A stretch of 64,000 bases of DNA, from positions 1-64,000 of the forward strand of contig JARBUD010000015.1 of assembly GCA_029239875.1 (NCBI GenBank), read 5' to 3'. This document shows, in pieces, positions 52,240-63,931 of this stretch. Source of the stretch: Xanthobacteraceae bacterium. Lineage in GTDB: Bacteria > Pseudomonadota > Alphaproteobacteria > Rhizobiales > Xanthobacteraceae. Made by a program: the position numbers and the translations under genes. The first letter of the stretch is position 1, and every line of letters begins with the position of its first letter. Under the pieces are notes generated by a model that saw only the letters and a list, made by a program, of their open reading frames with translations, did no database searches and was not told the DNA's origin.

Positions 52240-54008
52240 TGGCGATGGCCGGGCCGCTCTCGCAGGTCATAGCGGAGTTGAAGCCCTTTCCGGGCCGGGC
52301 AGCGCTGACATGGCGCATCGCGCTGCTATGCGCCCTTGTTTCCGCCACCGCCATGCTCTTTCAGACGCCGGAAGCGGCGATCAGTTGCTATCTGATCATC
52401 TTTCTGATGAAGCCTGACGCGGTGCAGAACATCGTCACGGCGATTGGCCTCATCGTTCTCGTGGTGCTCGTCGTCATTGCCTTGATCCCGCTGATCAATG
52501 CGACCGCGGAATCGCCGCTATTGCGACTGCTCACCATCGCGCTGGTGTCCTTTGTCTTCCTGTTCCTCGGCGCCGCGAGCCAGCTTGGTGAGATCGGGGG
52601 AGTGATCGGGCTGGTTTTCGCATTCATGTTGACGCTGGTGAATATGGCGCCTGTCCCGGACGCCCTAACCATTGGCCTTCGCTATGCCGCTTACATGGCG
52701 CTAATGCCGATGGCGTGGATGATAGCGTTTAATCTCGCGCTCGGGCTGTCGCCAGTGCACTTGCTGCGGAGGGTCCTCCTCGAACGACTGCGGACATGCG
52801 CCGATGCGATCGAGGGCGGGGCGCCTGGACATGACGCGGCAATCGCAGCGCTTCTTCGGGCCGATAATGCGGCAGCTGAAAAGCAGGCTGGTGTGGTCAA
52901 GCTGCTGGGCCTCGCAGCGCGCGATGATACTGCTCAGATCGCACGAGATATGCGGGCTTCCTATCGGCTTGCGCTGGCAACCTCGGGATTGCCCGACAAC
53001 CTCGATCCCACGCGGCAGACGCAGCTTCTGGACGCGTTGCGCGCGGCTCTCACTGCGCTTAACGCCGGCGAGCGACCGCCGGTGCCACCGATCCCGGACA
53101 CCGCGGCCGAGCCCTCGGAGCGCGAGGCCCTCTCCGCCCTGGCCGTCATCGCAGGCGCGCCCGAGGGCAAGGTTATCGATGCACCAAAAGCACCGTTCTT
53201 TTTTTCTGACGCCCTTTCCAATCCCGCATATCAGCGCTTTGCGCTCAAGACCACTGCAGCTGCGGTGGTCTGCTATCTGATTTATACCGGCCTCGACTGG
53301 CCGGGGATCCACACGGCAATGATCACCTGTTACGTCGCCGCGCTCGGCACTACCGGCGAGACCGTCCATAAGCTTGGCCTGCGCATTATTGGATGTCTCA
53401 TCGGCGCCACGATGGGAATGGGTGCAATCCTGTTCGTGGTGCCCCAGCTGGAGACGATTGGCGGACTGATGGCGCTGGTATTCGGGGGCGTGCTGGTCGG
53501 CGCCTGGGTCTCGACCGGCCCCGAGCGCATCGCCTATGGCGGAGTTCAGATCGCGCTCGCCTTCCTCCTCACCGTTCTTCAGGGCTTCGGACCGACCATC
53601 TCTCTCGATGCTGCTTGGGATAGGGTAGTCGGCATCCTTCTCGGGAACGTCGTCATCTACGTGATCTTCACCCGTCTCTGGCCGGTTTCGATCGAGGGCG
53701 CTGTGCGGATGCATTTGCAAGTCGCCCTTGCCGGAGTGAAGCGCATCGCGGCTCTAGCCCCCAAGTTGCGCGCGCATGCCGTGCCGGATGTCGCCTTGGT
53801 CGGGAGCGAGATCGGCAAGGCGACCGAACTCATGGCGCTGCTCCCCTTGGAGCCGATAGGCATCCGCCCGCAGCCTCCGACGGAGGCTATGCTAAACGCA
53901 GTAACGGCGGAGATCGGTCAGCTCGTCCGCGAAGTCTATTTCGCCCGCATACCTGACGCGGCTGCGTGGATGCACATTAACCGCCTCGCTGCGACGGTTG
54001 CGAAATGA
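52239..54008 (+). CDS. mdtO: FUSC-family inner-membrane efflux protein, MdtO-like
   Basis: 589 residues starting GTG 52239 (an in-frame ATG lies two codons on). Two sets of membrane helices (about 20-165 and 330-475) are each followed by a soluble part, the duplicated FUSC layout. Blocks: ALLCALVSATAMLFQTPEAA, FALKTTAAAVVCYLIYTGLDWPG (split at the TAA repeat), WVSTGPERIAYGGVQIALAF. FUSC pumps such as MdtO, AaeB and YhcP export aromatic acids, drugs or dyes. Tightly coupled to mdtN and mdtP. Confidence 0.86.
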   Translation: MAMAGPLSQVIAELKPFPGRAALTWRIALLCALVSATAMLFQTPEAAISCYLIIFLMKPDAVQNIVTAIGLIVLVVLVVIALIPLINATAESPLLRLLTIALVSFVFLFLGAASQLGEIGGVIGLVFAFMLTLVNMAPVPDALTIGLRYAAYMALMPMAWMIAFNLALGLSPVHLLRRVLLERLRTCADAIEGGAPGHDAAIAALLRADNAAAEKQAGVVKLLGLAARDDTAQIARDMRASYRLALATSGLPDNLDPTRQTQLLDALRAALTALNAGERPPVPPIPDTAAEPSEREALSALAVIAGAPEGKVIDAPKAPFFFSDALSNPAYQRFALKTTAAAVVCYLIYTGLDWPGIHTAMITCYVAALGTTGETVHKLGLRIIGCLIGATMGMGAILFVVPQLETIGGLMALVFGGVLVGAWVSTGPERIAYGGVQIALAFLLTVLQGFGPTISLDAAWDRVVGILLGNVVIYVIFTRLWPVSIEGAVRMHLQVALAGVKRIAALAPKLRAHAVPDVALVGSEIGKATELMALLPLEPIGIRPQPPTEAMLNAVTAEIGQLVREVYFARIPDAAAWMHINRLAATVAK

Positions 54009-55522
54009 GGTCGCTGCTGTGCATCGGCGCATTGCTTGCAATTGCCGCCTGCGCCCCCAATGCCGTCAACATGGCCTCTCGCGGAGCCGATACACCTTGG
54101 GCGCCGAACGGCAACGAGGAGGGAATTTGGAGCGCACAGGGGCAACTGCCGACGATGCCCCCGTCAACGCCGAACGGCGCGCCGGATTTCCGTGTTCCAG
54201 CCAATCTCGCGCTCGCGGTGGTTCCGTCTTCGCCGGAGATCGACCTCAAGCGGACCTATCGGCTGCCGGAGCTCATTGACATCGCCCAACGCAATAACCC
54301 TTCGACACGTTCGGCATGGGAACGGTCGCGTCAGGCGGCGCTGGCGGTGGGTATGGTGGAAGCGACCTACCTGCCGCTGATCACGGCCAGCGTCATCGGC
54401 GGAAGACAAAGCGTGGAGCAGGTCCTGCCGACCCCGGTCGGCACCCAGCGCTATTTCGAAGCCACGGCGGAGGGGGTCTCATCGGTAGTAGCGCTGCAGT
54501 GGTTGGTATTCGACTTCGGCCAGCGCGCCGCCGTGGCCGATGCCGCAAAGCAAGCGGCGATCGCCTCCAACGTTCTGTTCAATGGAGAGCACCAGAAGCT
54601 GATATTCAATGTTACCCGGAGCTATTATGCCTACGGCGCTGCAGTGACGCGCAGCCGCATTTCCCGGGACGCGTTGCGCAACAGTCTTGCCGTCCGAAAC
54701 GCCGTGGAGGATCGTCTCGCTCACGGCCTTGCTACAACGGTTGAGGTGGCACAGGCGCGCCAGCAGGTCGCGCAGTCGGAACTGCGTCGCGTGCAGGCAG
54801 AGGGCCAAGAGCGTGACGCGTATCAAATGCTGATCGCGGCGATGGGCGTCAACGCCATGCTGCGCATTCACGTCGGCGATGACGGGGGCCGTCGACTGCC
54901 CGATGCCGGCAACGTGCCGCTCGACCAGATGATCAAGCTCGCGTTGTCGCAGCGGCCGGACGTCGTCGCCAGCTATTCGGCCCTCCAGGCGAGTCGGGCC
55001 GGCATCAAGGCGGCGGAGGCCGAGTACCTGCCGAAGGTTTTCCTCTCCGGGGCCGCCGCCACCGGCCAGGGAAACTTCGATGCCAATGGCTTACCGACAA
55101 TCGGCCAACAGGCGACCGGATCGGGTGTGCTGATCGGCGCGACGATGCCGCTGTACGACGCCGGCTTGCGGGCGGCCCAGCTCAAACAGGCCCAGTCGCG
55201 CGTGGCGGCCGCCGAAAGCACCTTCCGGCAGACCCAAATTCTGACGGTCACCGAAATCGTCGCAGCAAGTAACGAGCTGCGCACGGCGCTCGAATCTTAT
55301 CGCGCGGCGACGACGTTGGTCGCGGCCGCTTCCACTACCTATGACGCGGCGCTGGAGGCCTATCGCAATGGTGTCGGCACGTCGACGGCGGCGACGGCCG
55401 CCAATTCCGGGTTGCTCGACGCCCGCCAAGCGCAGGCAGATGCACATGCCGCAGCCCTGACGGGTGCCGCCAACCTAGCCTTCGTTATCGGAGCCATGAC
55501 TTCGAGCAACGCGATACCATAG
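54005..55522 (+). CDS. mdtP: Outer-membrane efflux lipoprotein, MdtP/NodT type
   Basis: 505 residues. Lipoprotein signal MRSLLCIGALLAIAAC gives Cys 16 as lipid anchor. Two OEP (TolC-type) repeats cover about 95-290 and 300-500: LPELIDIAQRNNPSTRSAWE, VAQARQQVAQSELRRVQAEG, LIKLALSQRPDVVASYSALQ with long helices. ATG 54005 overlaps the mdtO stop (ATGA). It is the only outer-membrane factor in the window, so the opposing AaeA/AaeB system may share it. Confidence 0.88.
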   Translation: MRSLLCIGALLAIAACAPNAVNMASRGADTPWAPNGNEEGIWSAQGQLPTMPPSTPNGAPDFRVPANLALAVVPSSPEIDLKRTYRLPELIDIAQRNNPSTRSAWERSRQAALAVGMVEATYLPLITASVIGGRQSVEQVLPTPVGTQRYFEATAEGVSSVVALQWLVFDFGQRAAVADAAKQAAIASNVLFNGEHQKLIFNVTRSYYAYGAAVTRSRISRDALRNSLAVRNAVEDRLAHGLATTVEVAQARQQVAQSELRRVQAEGQERDAYQMLIAAMGVNAMLRIHVGDDGGRRLPDAGNVPLDQMIKLALSQRPDVVASYSALQASRAGIKAAEAEYLPKVFLSGAAATGQGNFDANGLPTIGQQATGSGVLIGATMPLYDAGLRAAQLKQAQSRVAAAESTFRQTQILTVTEIVAASNELRTALESYRAATTLVAAASTTYDAALEAYRNGVGTSTAATAANSGLLDARQAQADAHAAALTGAANLAFVIGAMTSSNAIP

Positions 55523-55606
55523 GCGCGAACACTGTGGGGGTGCGGAAGATTTGGTGTATGGGAACGCTTCGTACGATAGCGTCGCATGGGTTCGGGCTGT
55601 CGCCCC

Positions 55607-56479
55607 TCAGTGGGCCCTTTCCGGCAGCACAATGACCGTGGCCGACATTCCTGACACCAAGCGCACGTTGGGCGGGAGATCGCCAAGGCGCACGCGTACG
55701 GGAACGCGCTGGGCGAGACGTATCCAGGAGAATTGCGGATCAACCGTTGCCAGCAGGCCGCGGGCATCGTCGGGATTTGCAATCGCTCGCGCCAGACCTT
55801 CCACCACCCCGTCAAGAACGACGTTGCCTGCCATCAGTTCAACTTGCGCCTTGGCGCCGTCCTGTATGAGCGGTAATTTTGTTTCCATGAAGTAACCGTA
55901 AACGAAAAACGTGTCAGAATCGACCAACGCAAGTATGCCATTTCCGGCACTTGCGAAGTCGCCCTGGAGAGCAGTGAGATTGGTCACATAGCCGTTTACG
56001 GGAGCGTGGATCTTACTACGCCTCATGTTTATTTCTGCCACTGCGAGATTGGCTTGAGCTATCAGCAGCGCGCCTTCCGCCTCGGCAGCCACAGTGCTCA
56101 TCTGCTCGCCAGTCTCGATCGAAAATCCCGGGCTGTTCTCATGCTCAAGCGTCCTGAAGCGGCTCGCGTTGTTGCGGGCCAACTCAAAGGCAGCTTTCTT
56201 CATAGCGACCTCACCGCGCGCGCGGTCGAGGGCTGCACGAAACCGCTCCGCATCGATCTCGAACAGCAGATCGCCGCTCGCGACTCGTTGGTTGTCCTTC
56301 ACGTGAATCGCACTGATGAGCCCAGAGACGTCGGGGGCCACCTGGACGACGTTGGCAAGCACGCGTGCATCACGTGTCCAGGGACTGAGGGTGTAGTAGG
56401 TCCACAGCTGCCACCCAACGACTGCGGCAGCCGTCACGAGCATGAACGTAACCATAAAGCGCAGTATACTGGAAATCAT
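55607..56479 (-). CDS. aaeA: HlyD-family membrane fusion protein, AaeA-like
   Basis: 290 residues from ATG 56479. Single N-terminal helix (MISSILRFMVTFMLVTAAAV), then WTYYTLSPWTRDARVLANVVQVAPDVSG, a marker of the AaeA/EmrA-like group, a lipoyl half (ISAIHVKDNQRVASGDLLFE), short helical hairpin (about 90-155), second lipoyl half (KIHAPVNGYVTNLTALQGDF) and a barrel. It overlaps the DUF1656 gene by 4 bases. Last gene of the minus-strand efflux operon, convergent with mdtP. Confidence 0.86.
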   Translation of the reverse strand: MISSILRFMVTFMLVTAAAVVGWQLWTYYTLSPWTRDARVLANVVQVAPDVSGLISAIHVKDNQRVASGDLLFEIDAERFRAALDRARGEVAMKKAAFELARNNASRFRTLEHENSPGFSIETGEQMSTVAAEAEGALLIAQANLAVAEINMRRSKIHAPVNGYVTNLTALQGDFASAGNGILALVDSDTFFVYGYFMETKLPLIQDGAKAQVELMAGNVVLDGVVEGLARAIANPDDARGLLATVDPQFSWIRLAQRVPVRVRLGDLPPNVRLVSGMSATVIVLPERAH

Positions 56480-56712
56480 CGTAAAGTGGCTCCTGCCAGG
56501 AGCGGTACACCAAAGATCAGGGCGCCGAAGATGATCACGTAAAGGGCAGCGTCTGCCAGTGGCCTGTGCCAAGCGTATCGATAGAGGCCCACCTTGTCCG
56601 CGAGCCAGCTGATGATCAGATAGGGAAGCAGAGCGGCCGCCGCCCAGACCACCACGGGCGGCACGTAAAAACCGAACAGATCAACTGTACGGAAAAGCGG
56701 ATATGAATTCAT
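56476..56712 (-). CDS. aaeX: DUF1656 small membrane protein, AaeX-like
   Basis: 78 residues with two membrane segments (FYVPPVVVWAAAALLPYLII, LADAALYVIIFGALIFGVPL) joined by the loop WLADKVGLYRYAWHR. This is the DUF1656 pattern of AaeX, always found between or next to AaeA and AaeB-type genes. Start ATG 56712 is 7 bases after the aaeB-like stop codon. It is too small for its own transport role and is probably a pump subunit. Confidence 0.8.
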   Translation of the reverse strand: MNSYPLFRTVDLFGFYVPPVVVWAAAALLPYLIISWLADKVGLYRYAWHRPLADAALYVIIFGALIFGVPLLAGATLR

Positions 56713-56719
56713 GCGGCGC

Positions 56720-58870
56720 TCAATCCGTAAGTGCGAGCTGGAGGAAGTCATGATCGAGCTGAAGACGATCGGCGAGAAAGAGCACGCTGGACGCTGCCCG
56801 TAGCAGGCTACGCCCCAAAGGGGAGCCATGGACCGTCGAGAACTGTTCAAGGGCAGCCCACATCCGCGCTATTTCCGCCCCAGCCTCGTCACGCACCGCA
56901 CCGCTGCCCGCGCCCATTGTCGGCAAGCGGGAAAAGAGATTGGAAAGGCGGGACACCCCGAGCTCAAGGGTTTCCCGTGCGGCTTCTGGCATAGCGGGAT
57001 CGGCTGCGGCGCGTCGCAGATTGCCAAGCTCAAGTGCAATTGACGCACTCGCCAGCACGCCGCTCACGAAGATTTGGTTATCGCTTGAGCGCGGATTCAG
57101 CCGCGGCAACAGAGAAGACGAGAGGCCAATGATCTCGCGCGCGATTTGGCGCGGCTGACCGATGCCGGCTGCCGCTTTTGGCAGGAGCTCCCCGATCACA
57201 AGACGGCCGGCCTCCCGGCGGGACGCCAGAGACGTGACAGGAACGAGGCGCGCCGCCATGAGACAGACGAACATACCGAAGATGAGCCCGGAGCAGAAAT
57301 TGACGAAATCGAGGGGGGCCGGGGCGTAAACATTCGCTGGCGCGGCAGCGGCTACGAAATAGATGGTGAAGGTTCCTGCCGACCGCCCATAGCGCGGCGT
57401 TTTGATCAGCAGCCCGAGGGGAACGAGTATGGCAAGCAGGAACGCGGCCAGCATACCGAATCCTTCGAGCCACGGATACACGAGTGTCATGACGACATAG
57501 GCGCAAATACATGCTGCGATCACTGCTCGGAAGTAAGGCCAGCCAAGCTTTTCAGGATTGTCCGTGTTGACGCACTGATAGCTCATGAGGGCAAGGCCGG
57601 TAATACCGGCAATTCCCTGGTCCCATTCGGTTGCGTACCAGAACAAACAGAACACAAGAACCGCCAGCGCAACCCGGGTCCCCTGGAGCACCGCTTCGCG
57701 TCGCCCGACTCGCGCAGAGCGGCACGTGCGCAAGCCGCCGCGCACGACCTCGCCGCCGCGCGATCGTGCAGAGTTGAATATGGTGTCGGCTATGAAGGAC
57801 AGCATAGACAGCCTGCGCAGCAACTTATTCGTGCGCCGTATAATAAAAAGCAGCTCGGCCAAGGAGGCCAGTGGACCCTCCATGGCCTCGATGTCCGATT
57901 CAAGTGACGCCATGCGGCGCCGAGCGAGGAAAAGCTCGGATCGCTGAAAGCCTAAGCTCCTCTGCGCGGCCCGGCCGGCAGAGATACTTTCGAGCGTGGT
58001 GATGGTCATTTCGAGCGCCGACGTGAGGCGGTCGCGATCGCTCTCATTGCCCGCACACCGGATCCGGAACTCTACGAGACGGAGATAGAGGCTGCGCGCA
58101 ATGGCCAGGACAGCAAGCGCTTCCTTGGCTGCAGCGCGTAAGGCAACATCGTCCGCTCTCATCTCCCGAAGTTCGAACATGGAATACGAACGCAACGCGT
58201 CGAATTTGGCGATATTGTCCAGAAGATCGTCGCGCTGACGCACGAATTCGTCGAGTGAAATCTCAGTTTTCAGAGCCGCCGCGGCATGAGCGGCAAGCTG
58301 CTTCAAAGTTGTCGTCAGGAGACCTCGCAGTTGGACGCTCGCGTACTTTGGCACTACCAGACTAGTTGCCACGCCAGCGCAGGCTATCCCGATCGAGATC
58401 GCCGTGACTCGGTTCACGGCCACGGCCCAAGCGCCGTACGGATTAATCGCGCTTTCAAAGATGATGAGCAGACCCGTGTATCCAGCCAGCATGAAGCCGT
58501 ACGACGCAAAATTGGTCATCCGCGTGGCGCCGTAATAGCACGCGAACATCCAGATCGCGGCAGCTGCGACCAACAGAGCCGGAATTTGTGAAAACGCCTT
58601 CACGATAAATAGGCCGCAGATCGCGGCGAGTATCGTTCCCAGAAGACGGAACGCACCCTTGGCCAATGCAGCTCCAGCGGAGGACTGGGGAAGCAGGTAG
58701 ACAGTCAAGATTGCCCATTGCGGCTCCTGCACCTCCAACCAGTAGGCAATGGCTAGCGCAACGATGGCCGCCAGGGCAAGACGCACGGACACGACCAGAT
58801 CGCGCCAGTCAAAATCTCCGGCAAAAGCGGGCCGTACAGGAGCCGTCGTCCCGTTCGCCTCCACTGCCAA
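56720..58870 (-). CDS. aaeB: FUSC-family inner-membrane efflux protein, AaeB-like
   Basis: 716 residues from a TTG start (GGAGACAGGG upstream; GTG 58864 is an alternative). Two membrane blocks of about six helices each (about 25-175 and 400-550), each followed by a long soluble helical region, the full AaeB/FusC layout. Start of the first block: LVVSVRLALAAIVALAIAYW then EPQWAILTVYLLPQSSAGAA. AaeB exports p-hydroxybenzoate and related aromatic acids. It is upstream of the DUF1656 and AaeA-like genes and downstream of a LysR gene. The order B-X-A differs from E. coli aaeXAB. Confidence 0.87.
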   Translation of the reverse strand: MAVEANGTTAPVRPAFAGDFDWRDLVVSVRLALAAIVALAIAYWLEVQEPQWAILTVYLLPQSSAGAALAKGAFRLLGTILAAICGLFIVKAFSQIPALLVAAAAIWMFACYYGATRMTNFASYGFMLAGYTGLLIIFESAINPYGAWAVAVNRVTAISIGIACAGVATSLVVPKYASVQLRGLLTTTLKQLAAHAAAALKTEISLDEFVRQRDDLLDNIAKFDALRSYSMFELREMRADDVALRAAAKEALAVLAIARSLYLRLVEFRIRCAGNESDRDRLTSALEMTITTLESISAGRAAQRSLGFQRSELFLARRRMASLESDIEAMEGPLASLAELLFIIRRTNKLLRRLSMLSFIADTIFNSARSRGGEVVRGGLRTCRSARVGRREAVLQGTRVALAVLVFCLFWYATEWDQGIAGITGLALMSYQCVNTDNPEKLGWPYFRAVIAACICAYVVMTLVYPWLEGFGMLAAFLLAILVPLGLLIKTPRYGRSAGTFTIYFVAAAAPANVYAPAPLDFVNFCSGLIFGMFVCLMAARLVPVTSLASRREAGRLVIGELLPKAAAGIGQPRQIAREIIGLSSSLLPRLNPRSSDNQIFVSGVLASASIALELGNLRRAAADPAMPEAARETLELGVSRLSNLFSRLPTMGAGSGAVRDEAGAEIARMWAALEQFSTVHGSPLGRSLLRAASSVLFLADRLQLDHDFLQLALTD

Positions 58871-58891
58871 TGCCCTGTCTCCGTTTCATCA

Positions 58892-59800
58892 TCAATCTTC
58901 TCTTTGCGACATCGGCCTGCCGAAGGAGGTCTCGAGCGTCGACCGTTTTGCCACTTCGCCGAGAACGGCCTGGAAAGCCTTCACCGCGGGTGCGGAGGCG
59001 GCCAAATTGCTCTCGACGACGTAAGTGAGCTTGCCTAGGCGCGGCAGGCCTGCCTCTTGGCCGACTTCTGCAAGGATCGTCTTATTGAAGTTCTGGCCTA
59101 TGGCAATGACGCCGAGCCCCGATCTCGCTGCGGCTAGTACTCCCAGCAGATTGCTACATTCTGCGACATCAATCCACGGACGACGGTGCGCGACAAGCGC
59201 TCTTTCCGCCAGAGAGCGGGTGAGGCTAGGCTTGAGATAGGAAATAAACGGAACCGGGTCGGATGGCTTCAAATGCAAGGAGTGGTGCCCGACCCAGACC
59301 AGTTGTTCTTCCCACAGCGCCACTCCATTCGGGTCGCTGTGGCTTTTGCCCAGAATGACGTCGACTTCATGCGAGCGGAGCACATCATGCAGGTGCTCGT
59401 TGCGGCCTGTAATGAACTTCAAACCGAATTCCGGAAACTGGACGCGGAAGAGTCCAAGTACCTCGGGCAAGCGGGTCCGTGCGAACTCGTCCTCGATCCC
59501 CACCTTGAGCATGCCCTCCAGCCCGGGTCGTGAAAGGCGAAGGCGTGCCTCTTCAGAGATGGCGAGCATTGATCGCGCATAGATAAGCATGGCCTCGCCG
59601 TCGGGGGTGAGGTTCATACGCCGGGTGGTGCGGTGGATCAGCTTACGATTCAGCCGCTTCTCCAGCCGGGCGATCCGCTGGCTGATCGTGGATTGGGACG
59701 TCCCGATTTCGGTAGCCGCGAGACTGAAGCTTCGCTTAGTCGCGACCAGATCGAAAGCCCGCAACTCATCCGTATCGATGAGACCGCCTTGTCCTTGCAT
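58892..59800 (-). CDS. LysR-family regulator of the AaeB-type efflux operon
   Basis: 302 residues. Helix-turn-helix at about 12-70 (LRAFDLVATKRSFSLAATEI, GTSQSTISQRIARLEKRLNR), substrate domain about 95-300 (GMLKVGIEDEFARTRLPEVL, RSGLGVIAIGQNFN). It is the gene before the FUSC protein, 21 bases upstream on the same strand, not divergent as AaeR is in E. coli, so it may be co-transcribed. Aromatic acids are likely effectors by analogy. Confidence 0.85.
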   Translation of the reverse strand: MQGQGGLIDTDELRAFDLVATKRSFSLAATEIGTSQSTISQRIARLEKRLNRKLIHRTTRRMNLTPDGEAMLIYARSMLAISEEARLRLSRPGLEGMLKVGIEDEFARTRLPEVLGLFRVQFPEFGLKFITGRNEHLHDVLRSHEVDVILGKSHSDPNGVALWEEQLVWVGHHSLHLKPSDPVPFISYLKPSLTRSLAERALVAHRRPWIDVAECSNLLGVLAAARSGLGVIAIGQNFNKTILAEVGQEAGLPRLGKLTYVVESNLAASAPAVKAFQAVLGEVAKRSTLETSFGRPMSQRED

Positions 59801-60017: not shown

Positions 60018-60491
60018 TCAGAATCCGCTGAGCACTCTTAGATGGCGGTGCTCCCGGCTCGCGCCGGTCGGGTGCGCATGCGAATGCCGTTCCTCGGCCA
60101 CTGGAATAAGGCTGAGGGTGCCGTGCAGAACGCCGCGCTCCGTGAACAGCGCCTCGGCATAGGCGGACACTTCGCCCACACGTCCCCGCATGAGCATCAA
60201 GTCAATCGACGTGGTGTGGTCGAGCGGTGCGGTCAGCACCGCGATCGTCTCGTCATGTCGGTCGAGACGTCCTTGGGGCACGCGAGTTGCGAGATTGCGT
60301 ACCGACTGGTCAATGGCGCAACTGACGACGCCGAAGCAAAGGGCCTCGGACGGGGCGTCGATCCGCGCGGACAGCCCCCGGCGAACCAGATCACGTATTG
60401 CCTCCGAACGGTTGGCCGCACCAACGCTCGCCATATAGGCGTCGAGCGCAGCGGCGAGTTCATCGTCGATCGCGATGGTGGTCCGATGCAT
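60018..60491 (-). CDS. nikR: NikR-family ribbon-helix-helix regulator with altered nickel site
   Basis: 157 residues. The N-terminal ribbon-helix-helix (MHRTTIAIDDELAAALDAYM, ANRSEAIRDLVRRGL) and the ACT-like domain align to E. coli NikR (recalled sequence) without gaps to about residue 130 (Gly103 matches Gly103). The four high-affinity nickel ligands of E. coli NikR, His76, His87, His89 and Cys95, are here Leu76, Thr87, Pro89 and Ser95. His79 and Asp80 remain. A 24-residue extension carries His136, 138, 140, 148 and 150. It is divergent from the nickel operon. It is a DNA-binding repressor by family, but how it senses nickel is open. Confidence 0.85.
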   Translation of the reverse strand: MHRTTIAIDDELAAALDAYMASVGAANRSEAIRDLVRRGLSARIDAPSEALCFGVVSCAIDQSVRNLATRVPQGRLDRHDETIAVLTAPLDHTTSIDLMLMRGRVGEVSAYAEALFTERGVLHGTLSLIPVAEERHSHAHPTGASREHRHLRVLSGF

Positions 60492-60566
60492 GATGAATGG
60501 CTCTCCGATCCTTTGACAGAATAGGACGTCGGAACACGCCGTACAATGAATCCCGCTCGGCCAGAC

Positions 60567-60596
60567 TTGCCGATCGATCCGCTCAGGCGGTATGCT
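60567..60596 (+). promoter_or_regulatory. Promoter of the nik operon
   Basis: TTGCCG (60567-60572), 18 bases, TATGCT (60591-60596). The -10 lies within the left half of the NikR box, so a bound repressor would block RNA polymerase. Confidence 0.5.
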
Positions 60597-60617
60597 GCTT
60601 CAGAAATAATTTCATAC
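60590..60617. promoter_or_regulatory. nikR box: NikR-type operator ahead of nikK
   Basis: GTATGC, 16 bases, TCATAC. The E. coli NikR operator is GTATGA-N16-TCATAC, so this site matches in spacing and in 11 of 12 recognition bases. It overlaps the -10 element and ends one base before the GGGAG ribosome site of nikK. This placement also argues for GTG 60630 as the nikK start. Confidence 0.85.
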
Positions 60618-60629
60618 TGGGAGTTCGAC

Positions 60630-61406
60630 GTGACCGGTCTTGCCTCGTTCGCGCGGTACGCTGCGTGCCTCATGCTTGGCTCTACGCCGACCTTCGCCCA
60701 TTTTCAGCAGATCATTCCTTCCGCCGATGTCGTGCCCAACGGCGGCAGTGTCACGGTGGACATGGTCTTCACTCACCCCTTCGATGGCGGACCGGTGATG
60801 GAGATGAAGCGCCCCGTGCAGGTGGGGATACTCAAGGACGGCAGAAAAGTGGATCTTTCGCCGTCGCTAACGGAAAAGGTCGTCGGCGGCACGGCCGGCT
60901 GGACACTCACTCAAGACATAAGCGAGCCTGGCGCCGCCATTTTTTACATCGAGCCGCAGCCCTATTTCGAACCAGCTGAGAACAAACAGATTGTCCACTA
61001 TGCCAAAGTGGTCGTCGACGGTTTCGCCTCAGGTGAGGGATGGGACGATCTCGTGGGCCTCCCGGTCGAGATTCGCCCTCTCAGTCGGCCGACGGGGCTG
61101 TGGACCGGAAACCAGTTCTCCGGGGTCGTTATGAAGAAGGGCCAGCCGGTACCCTTCGCGGAAATCGAGGTCGAGTTCATCAACGATGGAACCGTGAAGG
61201 CGCCGAACGACGCCTTCATTACCCAAGTGATAAAGGCCGACGCGAACGGCACGTTCTCCTATACGATGCCACGCGGCGGCTGGTGGGGCTTTGCGGCGTT
61301 GGTTGAGAGCGATGCGCCGGGCAAATCGCCGGACGGCAAGGAGGTCGTCATCGAAGAGGGCGGACTTATCTGGATCAAGGCAACTGATATGCCCGGATCG
61401 AAGTGA
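60630..61406 (+). CDS. nikK: NikK-type periplasmic component of a nickel ECF importer (DUF4198)
   Basis: 258 residues from GTG 60630, preceded by GGGAG 7 bases upstream. It gives a clean signal peptide (VTGLASFARYAACLMLGSTP) with cleavage before AHFQQ. The mature part is a DUF4198 domain (about 25-250: FQQIIPSADVVPNGGSVTVD, FTHPFDGGPVMEMKRP, VVMKKGQPVPFAEIEVEFIN), the family found in NikK. An ATG at 60546 would start upstream of the operator and is unlikely. His and the mature N-terminus may help capture nickel. Its stop overlaps nikM (GTGA). Confidence 0.8.
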   Translation: MTGLASFARYAACLMLGSTPTFAHFQQIIPSADVVPNGGSVTVDMVFTHPFDGGPVMEMKRPVQVGILKDGRKVDLSPSLTEKVVGGTAGWTLTQDISEPGAAIFYIEPQPYFEPAENKQIVHYAKVVVDGFASGEGWDDLVGLPVEIRPLSRPTGLWTGNQFSGVVMKKGQPVPFAEIEVEFINDGTVKAPNDAFITQVIKADANGTFSYTMPRGGWWGFAALVESDAPGKSPDGKEVVIEEGGLIWIKATDMPGSK

Positions 61407-62029
61407 GCACGCCCGTGGCCCACATTCCGGATGGTCTTCTTTCCGTGCCGGTCTTGGCCTGCGGGGCCTGCCTCGCAGCCGTGGGGGTCGGGCTCGGTTT
61501 GCGGCGCCTCGACGACCGGCTCATTCCACGAGCGGGAATCCTTGCGGCGGCGGTGTTCGTAGGCTCGCTAATGTCCATCCCTGTTGGCCCATCCAGTGTG
61601 CATGTTCTGCTGAGTGGGTTGATGGGCCTCATGCTTGGCATAGCCACATTTCCGGCGGTGTTCGTCATGTTGCTGCTGCAGACGCTGCTGTTCGGTTTCG
61701 GCGGCTTGACGACCCTGGGCGTCAACACGGTGAACATCGCCTTGCCGGGGCTGTTGTTCGCCACATTGATCGGGCCGATGATACGGCGCGCCGGCCATGC
61801 GACGACACAGGCCGCGCTAGCAGGCCTGACTGGCGCACTCTCTATCGCAGGTACTGGCGGCCTGGTTGCCTTGTCTCTCGCCCTTTCATCCTCGGACTAC
61901 ACACCCGTCGCGACTGTGCTCATCGCCACCTATCTGCCGCTTATGATCGGCGAGGCATTCGTCACCGCAACAATCGTCGCTTTCCTCGGCCGCGTGCAAC
62001 CGGACGCCTTGCGGCCTGTAATCTCATGA
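61403..62029 (+). CDS. nikM: NikM/CbiM-type nickel-binding membrane component (S component)
   Basis: 208 residues, about six to seven membrane segments. The signature AHIPDGLLSVPVLACGA near the N-terminus corresponds to the MHIPDG motif whose N-terminal residues and His2 bind the metal; PVGPSSVHVLLSGLMGLMLG holds the second histidine. With GTG 61403 the His is at position 7; with GTG 61415 the protein would start Met-Ala-His, and after Met removal His would be at position 2, as in NikM and CbiM. The second start is attractive although its ribosome site is weak. It overlaps both neighbours by 4 bases. Confidence 0.88.
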   Translation: MSTPVAHIPDGLLSVPVLACGACLAAVGVGLGLRRLDDRLIPRAGILAAAVFVGSLMSIPVGPSSVHVLLSGLMGLMLGIATFPAVFVMLLLQTLLFGFGGLTTLGVNTVNIALPGLLFATLIGPMIRRAGHATTQAALAGLTGALSIAGTGGLVALSLALSSSDYTPVATVLIATYLPLMIGEAFVTATIVAFLGRVQPDALRPVIS

Positions 62030-62580
62030 AATGCGGCGCCGCCGTGTTGTTGATCGCAATTGTGACGGCGTCGCCGGCGGCGGCTCACAAGCTGAGGGTG
62101 TTCGCCACGGTCGAGGGTCGAGAAGTCCGAGGCTACGCCTTCTTTGTCGGCGGCGGCCGGCCGGAGGGCAGCGCCTGGGTTGCGAAAGGAGCGGGCAATC
62201 TCATCGCCTCCGGCACAACGGACGCCGAGGGTCGCTTCGCCTTCGGTCTTCCTGCCACAGGGTCGACGGATGTTACTGTAACGGTCGATACCCGTGAAGC
62301 CCATACCGCCTCCGCAACCCTTTCAGCGAGCCGGCTAATCGGGGCCACCGCCGTTGAGCCTCCGGCATCCGTTTCGGCCTTGGCGAAGGTCCGAACAGCA
62401 CAGAACGACCCGGAGCTTGCTGCCCTCGTTGCGGCTTCGGTGCAAAAGGAGATAGTGCCACTTCTGGAGCGACTGGAGGCTATGGACACGCGACTGCGTT
62501 ACACCGACATGTTGTCTGGCGTGTTCCTGATCATTGGACTCTGCGGCATCGGCCTCTCGGCACGGCGGAGGCGATGTTGA
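62026..62580 (+). CDS. nikL: NikL-type periplasmic component with C-terminal membrane anchor
   Basis: 184 residues. Signal peptide (MKCGAAVLLIAIVTASPAAA/HKL), leaving a mature N-terminus that starts with His. A beta-rich domain (about 22-105: AHKLRVFATVEGREVRGYAF, GTTDAEGRFAFGLPATG) is followed by a helical stalk and one C-terminal membrane helix (MLSGVFLIIGLCGIGLSARR). NikL proteins in NikKMLQO-type importers have this plan. Starts in the ATGA overlap with nikM and overlaps nikQ by 7 bases. Confidence 0.78.
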   Translation: MKCGAAVLLIAIVTASPAAAHKLRVFATVEGREVRGYAFFVGGGRPEGSAWVAKGAGNLIASGTTDAEGRFAFGLPATGSTDVTVTVDTREAHTASATLSASRLIGATAVEPPASVSALAKVRTAQNDPELAALVAASVQKEIVPLLERLEAMDTRLRYTDMLSGVFLIIGLCGIGLSARRRRC

Positions 62581-63290
62581 TCAGGCTGGGCGATCCGCGG
62601 CTGCGTGTGGTCACCGCGCTCGTCGCCGTGACGGTAATCTCATTGCTGCGCACGTTGCCTGTTTCGGCGACCGCCTTCTCGCTCACAGTCCTTATCGCTG
62701 CACTGCATCGGCCGGACCGGCGGCTCTGGCGCCGGCTACTGCACGTCGAGATGTTCGTTCTGCTACTTTTCGCGACACTTCCCTTCACCATGGCCGGTCC
62801 CGCCGTCGCCACTCTCGGTCCGTTCACAGTGAGCAGCACCGGCCTCTGGCGTGGGACGCTCATTGCGCTCAAAGCATCGGCGTCCATACTGGTCTTGCAT
62901 GTCTTGCTCGGCGAGTTGGAGTCGCAACGGCTGGGGGCAACTCTTCGAGCGCTGCTCGTACCGGAGCGGCTCGTCCACCTGTTCGTGATGACAGCCCGCT
63001 ATATCGCGCTGATCCGAGACGAGGCGCGCCGCCTAACCGACGCCATGAGTGCGCGGAGCTTTCATCCTCGCTCCAACCGCCACACGTGGCGCAGCTATGG
63101 CAACCTTTTCGGCATGATCCTGGTGCGTGCACTGGAGAGGGCGGAACGCGTGCGGCAGGCGATGCTTTGCCGCGGATACACAGGAAGCTATCACAATTTG
63201 ACTCCGTCCGCGCCGCACGCCCGGGACTGGGCCTCCTTCGCGTTGTTTTCCGGCGCTGCCATCCTTGCACTGATAGTTGACCGTCTATGA
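62574..63290 (+). CDS. nikQ: CbiQ/NikQ-type ECF transporter membrane component (T component)
   Basis: 238 residues, about five membrane segments. Cytosolic coupling helices of the EcfT type are visible: RYIALIRDEARRLTDAMSAR and ALERAERVRQAMLCRGYTG, whose Ala-Arg-Ser and Arg-Gly-Tyr endings touch the ATPase. It joins the S component NikM to the ATPase NikO. Overlaps nikO by 4 bases (ATGA). Confidence 0.88.
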   Translation: MLIRLGDPRLRVVTALVAVTVISLLRTLPVSATAFSLTVLIAALHRPDRRLWRRLLHVEMFVLLLFATLPFTMAGPAVATLGPFTVSSTGLWRGTLIALKASASILVLHVLLGELESQRLGATLRALLVPERLVHLFVMTARYIALIRDEARRLTDAMSARSFHPRSNRHTWRSYGNLFGMILVRALERAERVRQAMLCRGYTGSYHNLTPSAPHARDWASFALFSGAAILALIVDRL

Positions 63291-63931
63291 ATCCGCTTGT
63301 CGAACTCACCAATCTGACGGTCATGCGTGACGGAACCGCGCTCCTGACAGGCGTTGATCTCACGTTATGCCGCGGCGAGCGGGTCGCGCTGGTCGGTGCC
63401 AACGGCGCGGGAAAGACGACCCTGCTGCGCACTATCATCGGGCTGGAGCCCATCGGAGGCGGGAGAATCCGCCTTTTTGGCGAGGAGTGCACGACGGAGC
63501 GGGCGTTCCGGAAGTTCCGCCCGCGCATCGGCTTCCTGTTCCAGGAGAGCGACGATCAGTTGTTCTGCCCCACGGTCGTCGAAGATGTCGCCTTCGGGCC
63601 CCTCAATCTCGGTCTCAGCGTCGCGGAAGCGCACCGCCAGGCGGTGATGACGCTGGAGCAGCTAGGCATTGGCCATCTCGCTCAACGCATCACTCACCGG
63701 TTGTCGGGCGGGGAGAAGCGCCTCGTGTGCCTCGCGGGCCTGCTCGCCATGAAGCCGGACGTTATCATGCTGGACGAGCCTACCAATGGAGTCGACACAG
63801 AACATGGCTGCCGATTGCGGCAGGCGCTTCTCGATTACCCCGCGGCACTGCTCCTCGTATCTCACGACCCACATTTCGTCGGAGAGCTCGCGACCCGGGT
63901 GATGACGATCCGGCACGGTCGGATGCTGTGA
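63287..63931 (+). CDS. nikO: CbiO/NikO-type ECF transporter ATPase
   Basis: 214 residues, a short EcfA-type ATPase. Walker A GANGAGKTTLL, Q-loop FLFQESDDQLFCPTVVEDVAFGP with the family-specific Q-D-Q-L-F, signature LSGGEKRLVCLAG, Walker B DVIMLDEPTNGVD, and H-switch LVSHDPHF. It ends at RHGRML, lacking the C-terminal extension of longer EcfA proteins. Last gene of the nik operon. The final 69 bases after it hold no supported start of a further gene. Confidence 0.93.
   Translation: MNPLVELTNLTVMRDGTALLTGVDLTLCRGERVALVGANGAGKTTLLRTIIGLEPIGGGRIRLFGEECTTERAFRKFRPRIGFLFQESDDQLFCPTVVEDVAFGPLNLGLSVAEAHRQAVMTLEQLGIGHLAQRITHRLSGGEKRLVCLAGLLAMKPDVIMLDEPTNGVDTEHGCRLRQALLDYPAALLLVSHDPHFVGELATRVMTIRHGRML

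Follow-up and report, generated by a model that had tools for sequence, protein, structure and literature searches.

A clade of alphaproteobacterial NikR-like proteins without the square-planar nickel ligands and with a fixed histidine tail

What might a NikR-like regulator sense once the residues that hold nickel have been exchanged? In the relevant passages of PMC7055735 it is the four-coordinate planar site that ties NikR to its nickel response, and the question is raised here by a gene in the window (the whole stretch of 64,000 nucleotides that was analysed, contig C34 of a 5.07 Mb Ancylobacter genome). The gene lies on the minus strand at 60018–60491 and encodes a variant NikR-like putative repressor of 157 residues, as judged from the gene call, Pfam domains, phmmer and AlphaFold2. 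The protein has the ribbon-helix-helix plus NikR_C architecture of NikR, with the first domain at about residues 1–47 (RHH_1, 28.3 bits, Pfam cutoff 20.5) and the second at about residues 48–131 (NikR_C, 52.4 bits, cutoff 22), followed by a C-terminal tail at residues 132–157 (60021–60098, minus strand), and it is the one NikR_C protein of the window genome. It scored 101.9 bits with the NCBIfam model TIGR02793, below the cutoff of 175.45, and 107.6 bits with NF002815, above the cutoff of 83; the latter names such proteins nickel-responsive NikR, a name also carried by their record annotation, and annotation therefore hides the ligand change.

A sequence-only reading of the locus had described a residue-for-residue alignment with Escherichia coli NikR up to about residue 130 and the replacement of all four nickel ligands, and both descriptions were borne out. 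phmmer against PDB sequences aligned the window protein to 1q5v without gaps over residues 1–131 (E 1.9e-19), and in a MAFFT alignment H76, H87, H89 and C95 of NikR correspond to Leu, Thr, Pro and Ser. The former nickel-site codons, with coordinates counted from the start codon, span 60207–60266 of the minus strand (L76 at 60264–60266, T87 at 60231–60233, P89 at 60225–60227 and S95 at 60207–60209). A fold search matched the model of the window protein to NikR structures, and the modelled C-terminal domain lies 0.9–1.1 Å from 1q5y. A decaying nikR whose ligands have drifted off, or a misalignment, has nothing in its favour except the substitutions themselves; the gapless alignment, the close fit to 1q5y, like replacements in 60 members and an overall pN/pS of 0.28 over 105 Ancylobacter pairs speak against it; these results contradict the idea, and we give it next to no probability. 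The variant gene is under purifying selection, the pN/pS being 0.27 for the DNA domain, 0.23 for the metal domain and 0.40 for the tail in Ancylobacter.

The set we analysed consisted of 60 variant and 46 canonical rows after the removal of identical proteins, the canonical rows being chosen by their HHHC ligands, while five odd rows were set aside and stand outside both counts. Among the variant rows position 87 is Ser in 59 and Thr in one, position 89 is Pro throughout, and position 95 is Ser in 42, Ala in 13, Thr in four and Met in one, never Cys, so that the planar ligands at 87, 89 and 95 are kept in none of the 60. Position 76 is Leu, Met or Gln in 52 rows and still His in eight, and the fixed losses are therefore those of H87, H89 and C95. 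Nearby, position 62 is Gln in 49 rows and His in six, and position 97 is Asp in 41 and Glu in 19. All 46 canonical rows have H62, H76, H87, H89, C95 and E97, of which only positions 62 and 97 are free results because the rows were defined by HHHC. Every variant row retains E30 and D34, named in parts of PMC7055735 as side chains of a second, interdomain metal site. R75 is likewise found in 60/60 variant rows and R78 in 51/60, and H79, H92 and H123 are invariant (60/60), with counts of 43/46, 34/46 and 26/46, respectively, in the canonical rows.

The suggestion that this exchange might define a clade was upheld. After removal of the ligand columns together with the fixed positions next to them, 40 variant rows made up one side of a branch supported at 100/100, and with the ligand columns out all 60 made up one side of a branch with an SH-aLRT of 99 (a quick tree which warns of long branches meeting). 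A single origin for the variant group, with the ligand change as its defining mark, is well supported by these trees. Ligand losses are also seen in the five odd rows, which read QAPR (L063), RQPY (L155), RHHT (L076), HQHC (L073) and QQPS (L256); these were rejected as members since they scatter in the trees, several of them on long branches.

All 60 variant proteins come from the Alphaproteobacteria. Around the window genome a NikR-like match was found in 43 of 101 genomes, and the 30 Ancylobacter genomes divide into 15 with the variant, nine with a canonical protein (one of these, G007, A. oerskovii, having both) and seven with neither. The Ancylobacter variants are at 67–100% identity, and the two forms avoid each other in this genus (one-sided Fisher p 0.007, kinship not corrected for). 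Scanning species genomes for the variant pattern recovered 37 loci, 36 of them variant and one canonical (L138), with variants in Ancylobacter, Kaistia, Methylorubrum, Methylobacterium, Mesorhizobium, Breoghania, Bosea, Ahrensia, Cohaesibacter and Roseomonas, as well as in several Rhodobacterales. An even draw over the order gave matches in 119/397 genomes, 27 scoring 174–323 bits and the rest at most 119 bits; all 25 newly taken high scorers have the S-P pattern, and three lower-scoring loci read HHHC (two) and QQPS (one). A class-wide draw gave a match in 18/387 genomes, with the high-scoring form in the window genome only. It should be noted that in both draws the best nine candidates at most were scored in most genomes, so second copies could escape.

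What sets the variant proteins apart besides the lost ligands is the tail. H138, H140, H148 and H150 are present in all 40 of the variant rows compared, along with H146 in 35, V153 in 39 and F157 in 38 (position 146 is Arg in the window protein). A pattern of H-x-H/H-x-H plus a V-F ending fits 60/60 variant and 0/46 canonical rows, although the full fit is partly built in because the pattern was written after the sequences had been seen. H-x-H...H-x-H also occurs in 21/46 canonical rows without the fixed pattern, and with so many canonical tails rich in histidine, such a tail is not by itself the mark of a sensor. AlphaFold2 gave the window-type variant a mean pLDDT of 90.2 and built its tail as two strands at model residues 120–137 and 145–152 (gene numbering is one higher), with pLDDT values of 79–89 for the tail blocks. 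From the same 53 input sequences, the tail of a canonical Ancylobacter control (L048) had pLDDT values of 57–65 and no strand; 33 of the 53 were variant, and tail order may partly reflect that share. The variant tail is thus predicted to be an ordered β-hairpin and the control tail to be poorly ordered. Judging by strand parity in an antiparallel hairpin, H138 would lie on the same face as positions 146, 148 and 150. The tail sequence alone (one tail) had no PDB sequence match at E 10, and the VIA-align rows covered model residues 1–130, so that the hairpin itself was barely tested against known folds.

This tail bears on two other ways in which the protein might work. A low-affinity nickel sensor might persist in the core, made up of H79, H92 and H123 (and H76 where kept), leaving the tail as a metal buffer only, and the three histidines are indeed invariant in the clade where H92 and H123 are not among canonical rows. 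H79, however, is nearly invariant in canonical proteins too, and the fixed tail pattern is unlike the variable canonical tails, and we consider this explanation improbable. Alternatively, DNA binding might have become independent of metal, with Arg replacing the Ni(II) charge and locking the DNA-binding form to give a constitutive or level-controlled repressor whose hold is lifted by a partner, by proteolysis or by modification of the tail. The joint loss of ligands and second shell with a fixed Arg nearby would suit such a change; constitutive repression of an uptake system that the cell needs would nevertheless be hard to sustain, and the four tail histidines are present in 40/40 rows, which makes this quite an unlikely state of affairs.

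The genomic setting of the window gene is one of nickel uptake and a nickel enzyme. The regulator is divergent from nikKMLQO, which runs on the plus strand with nikK (Pfam DUF4198) at 60630–61406, nikM (CbiM-type S component) at 61403–62029, nikL at 62026–62580 (start within the first codons of the frame; NF058648, 149.3 bits, cutoff 100), nikQ (ECF T component) at 62574–63290 and nikO (ECF ATPase) at 63287–63931. The GTG at 60630, chosen by inspection, is a likelier nikK start than the ATG at 60546 because the ATG frame would contain the operator described below. Beginning with ureABC-like genes just past the window, the order continues with ureA, ureB, ureC, two crcB genes, ureE, ureF, ureG, ureD, a urea channel and an ammonium transporter; these names come from reading translations and agree with the annotated Roseomonas marmotae plasmid p1318-3, which has nearly the same order. 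The expectation that the variant always sits next to nikKMLQO did not hold: the two are divergent in 13 of the 15 Ancylobacter variant genomes, and adjacent in only 14 of 25 loci outside the genus.

We located the NikR-type operator GTATGC-N16-TCATAC between the divergent genes at 60590–60617 (plus strand) by motif scan. As the sequence-only reading had it, this is one base off the E. coli box GTATGA-N16-TCATAC (given in an excerpt of PMC7055735), and it is the single match in 64 kb at one mismatch or fewer, compared with a mean of 0.02 in 100 shuffles. The further claim that the operator overlaps the −10 stands in part. Comparison of 26 divergent loci suggests a nikK promoter at 60567–60596 (plus strand), with a candidate −35 TTGCCG at 60567–60572 and, 18 bp after it and inside the operator, a candidate −10 TATGCT at 60591–60596. 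In the 25 other loci the −10 is TATGAT in 22, the others being TATGCT, TATAAT and TATGAA, and TTG.. lies about 18 bp upstream of TATGAT in many of them; a consensus promoter scan of the window returned no sigma-70-like site at its threshold, and the window −10 consequently rests on conservation across relatives. The placing of TATGAT within the left half-site fits repression by covering the −10.

At the level of sequence, the DNA target has been kept, as proposed. The operator is present in all 13 Ancylobacter divergent loci (11 exact, two with one mismatch), and an exact copy still precedes nikK–nikM in the two genomes where the regulator is elsewhere (G005 and G016), giving an operator before nikK in 15/15 variant genomes of the genus. 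Named loci led to the 25 outside genomes, of which 17 contain a close nikK (cutoff E 1e-60), and in 17/17 there is an operator with one mismatch at most at the start of that gene; the box is at the nikK start in G488, G500 and G508 though the regulator is unlinked, and at a second nikK copy too in G494. Five Methylorubrum/Methylobacterium genomes have no nikK match, and four of these (G490, G491, G504 and G505) carry a one-mismatch box, which in G505 lies at or ahead of a DUF4198 gene. The fifth, G489, lacks an operator at one mismatch, the best box of the R. marmotae copy has two mismatches, and 6/25 variant loci of the order-wide draw have no operator within 1.5 kb. A second NikR that might do the work was looked for and rejected: no other NikR_C protein accompanies the variant in 25/25 outside genomes or in the window genome, and no other NikR-like match does so in 14 of the 15 variant Ancylobacter genomes, G007 being the exception. 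As the only NikR found in those genomes, the variant is probably what binds these operators, and the position of the operator suggests that it represses.

Among the operators whose neighbours were looked at, most precede nickel-uptake genes. In Cohaesibacter (G506) the regulator and a family-5 solute-binding gene flank an exact box; the latter gene resembles nikA, though its score stays under the model cutoff. We also note that in Methylorubrum/Methylobacterium a conserved NikR-like box precedes a TonB-receptor gene (L186, near position 1501), and a box precedes a TonB-receptor-like gene, by reading, at L189 (also near position 1501); the gene behind the box is a possible nickel outer-membrane receptor. 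The exact second boxes of two genomes do not point to nickel uptake: in G506 the box is flanked by genes for a HutC-like regulator and a GFA-domain protein, and in A. gelatini (G025) it precedes, by about 210 bp, the putative binding-protein gene of a urea-type ABC transporter (L257:707-2198; TIGR03427, 554.7 bits, cutoff 333.9).

The A. gelatini box and the run of the window operon into ureABC and a urea channel-like gene bring in an explanation in which the remodelled core pocket (R75, R78, S87 and S95 in an ACT-like fold) has a small molecule, an anion, Co or Zn as its ligand, and the protein links nickel uptake to another signal such as nitrogen or urea. The conservation of the pocket agrees with this (R75, S/T87 and P89 in all 60 rows, R78 in 51), and the two arginines near the old site would suit an anion better than a metal, which is a point against the hairpin. 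ACT domains also match the C-terminal domain model with Z about 9 to 11; this is expected for any NikR_C domain, and because the canonical domain shares the fold the likeness is not specific. Moreover, urease genes adjoin nikKMLQO in only 2/14 Ancylobacter loci and 3/25 loci outside the genus (L102, L103 and L120, within 12 kb at most), and the conserved His tail is left unexplained. We regard a core-pocket signal as unlikely, albeit credible enough to be kept in view. Its more specific form, a NikR scaffold converted once to an ACT-like small-molecule or anion sensor through R75/R78/S87/S95, with operator and nickel-uptake target kept and the His tail only buffering metal, strikes us as doubtful, with a low probability; if true, a non-metal signal such as nitrogen would set nickel import.

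Our preferred explanation, to which we give slightly less than an even chance, is that the variant is a NikR-derived repressor of nickel uptake in which the His hairpin has taken over nickel sensing from the square-planar site at the interface. With nickel in ample supply the repressor would shut off its uptake, bound to the classical NikR operator that overlies the nikKMLQO promoter. The square-planar His3Cys site at the tetramer interface would have been taken apart, along with H62 and E97 in the majority of members, and its place would now be held by invariant R75 and P89 with S/T87 and S/A/T/M95. The new metal site would be formed by H138, H140, H148 and H150 of the C-terminal β-hairpin, perhaps joined by H79, H92 or H123 of a neighbouring subunit. 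Nickel is the probable signal because the main targets are nickel uptake, and the loss of the ligands in favour of a fixed His pattern suggests the hairpin as the sensing site; this last step is the weakest link, His-rich tails being common in canonical relatives. The sequence-only reading had held that the regulator must sense something else, or nickel by another site. The second option is favoured by the nickel-uptake targets and by the tail, which is fixed only where the ligands are lost and so argues for nickel by another site; that it must sense something else is not borne out.

Compared with E. coli NikR (1q5v, 2hza and 3od2), the variant has the same domain order, a gapless 131 residues, E30/D34, ribbon residues R3 and T5, the operator half-sites and their position over a nickel-uptake promoter. 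It differs in lacking H87/H89/C95, in having mostly lost H76 and, in most members, changed H62 and E97, in an identity of about 30%, in a tail of 26 residues that is predicted to be ordered, and in its target, nikKMLQO here and nikABCDE in E. coli. Helicobacter pylori NikR (6mrj, 2cad and 2y3y) shares the fold and a nickel–urease context but only about 14–21% identity with the variant; passages of PMC7055735 describe four square-planar nickel sites and further low-affinity ones for it. Unlike the variant, all nine canonical Ancylobacter proteins (L046–L054) read HHHC, and nikKMLQO was not found within 16 kb of their loci. They adjoin an ABC ATPase gene whose product is 31–34% like NikO and probably of the NikDE type, and in G004, G022, G024 and G027 a one-mismatch operator of the same type as the variant's lies beside the gene. 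Two further alphaproteobacterial proteins resemble the variant in part: L139 has a His tail ending HHHLRPVG like the variant but keeps HHHC, and L256, which combines QQPS with a His-rich tail, lies on a long branch and was not counted in the clade. A search for intermediates near L139 gave no new ones (one of nine genomes matched, this being L139 itself).

Within the literature that was searched, judged by titles and abstract openings and with subscription journals largely outside, we found no paper on a ligand-less NikR clade. The portion of PMC2667541 available deals with nikKMLQO and with the NikR control predicted for further nickel transporters, and does not take up the ligands; its Additional file 19 is given as a NikR tree. 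Loss of urease activity in nikR mutants of Paracoccus yeei is stated in the accessible text of PMC11578231; the NikR of P. yeei CCUG 32053 was considered and rejected as a clade member, as it reads HHHC and adjoins ABC transporter genes of the nikABCDE kind, and because it is HHHC this phenotype says nothing about the clade. The planar site is what is held to make NikR nickel-responsive (PMC7055735, in the passages cited above) and the clade has dropped it, keeping operator and target and gaining a fixed, predicted His hairpin. This would make the clade a natural experiment in which a metal sensor changes its site without losing its circuit.

Some minor features of the surroundings may be added. 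The variant nikR, nikKMLQO and the urease genes occur together at L156 on the R. marmotae plasmid p1318-3, and the plasmid location hints at movement of the cassette between orders. A pair of crcB-like (fluoride channel) genes lies within or next to the urease genes at L072:3722-4555, just beyond the window, and at L032, L033, L120 and L156, an arrangement found in Ancylobacter and two Roseomonas; fluoride inhibits urease, and the crcB pair may therefore protect the enzyme. On the other side of the regulator, the window carries AaeA/AaeB-like efflux genes, a TolC-like gene and a LysR regulator at 54005–59770, beside the nik locus, and the LysR gene has stayed a neighbour of nikR in G025 and G007.
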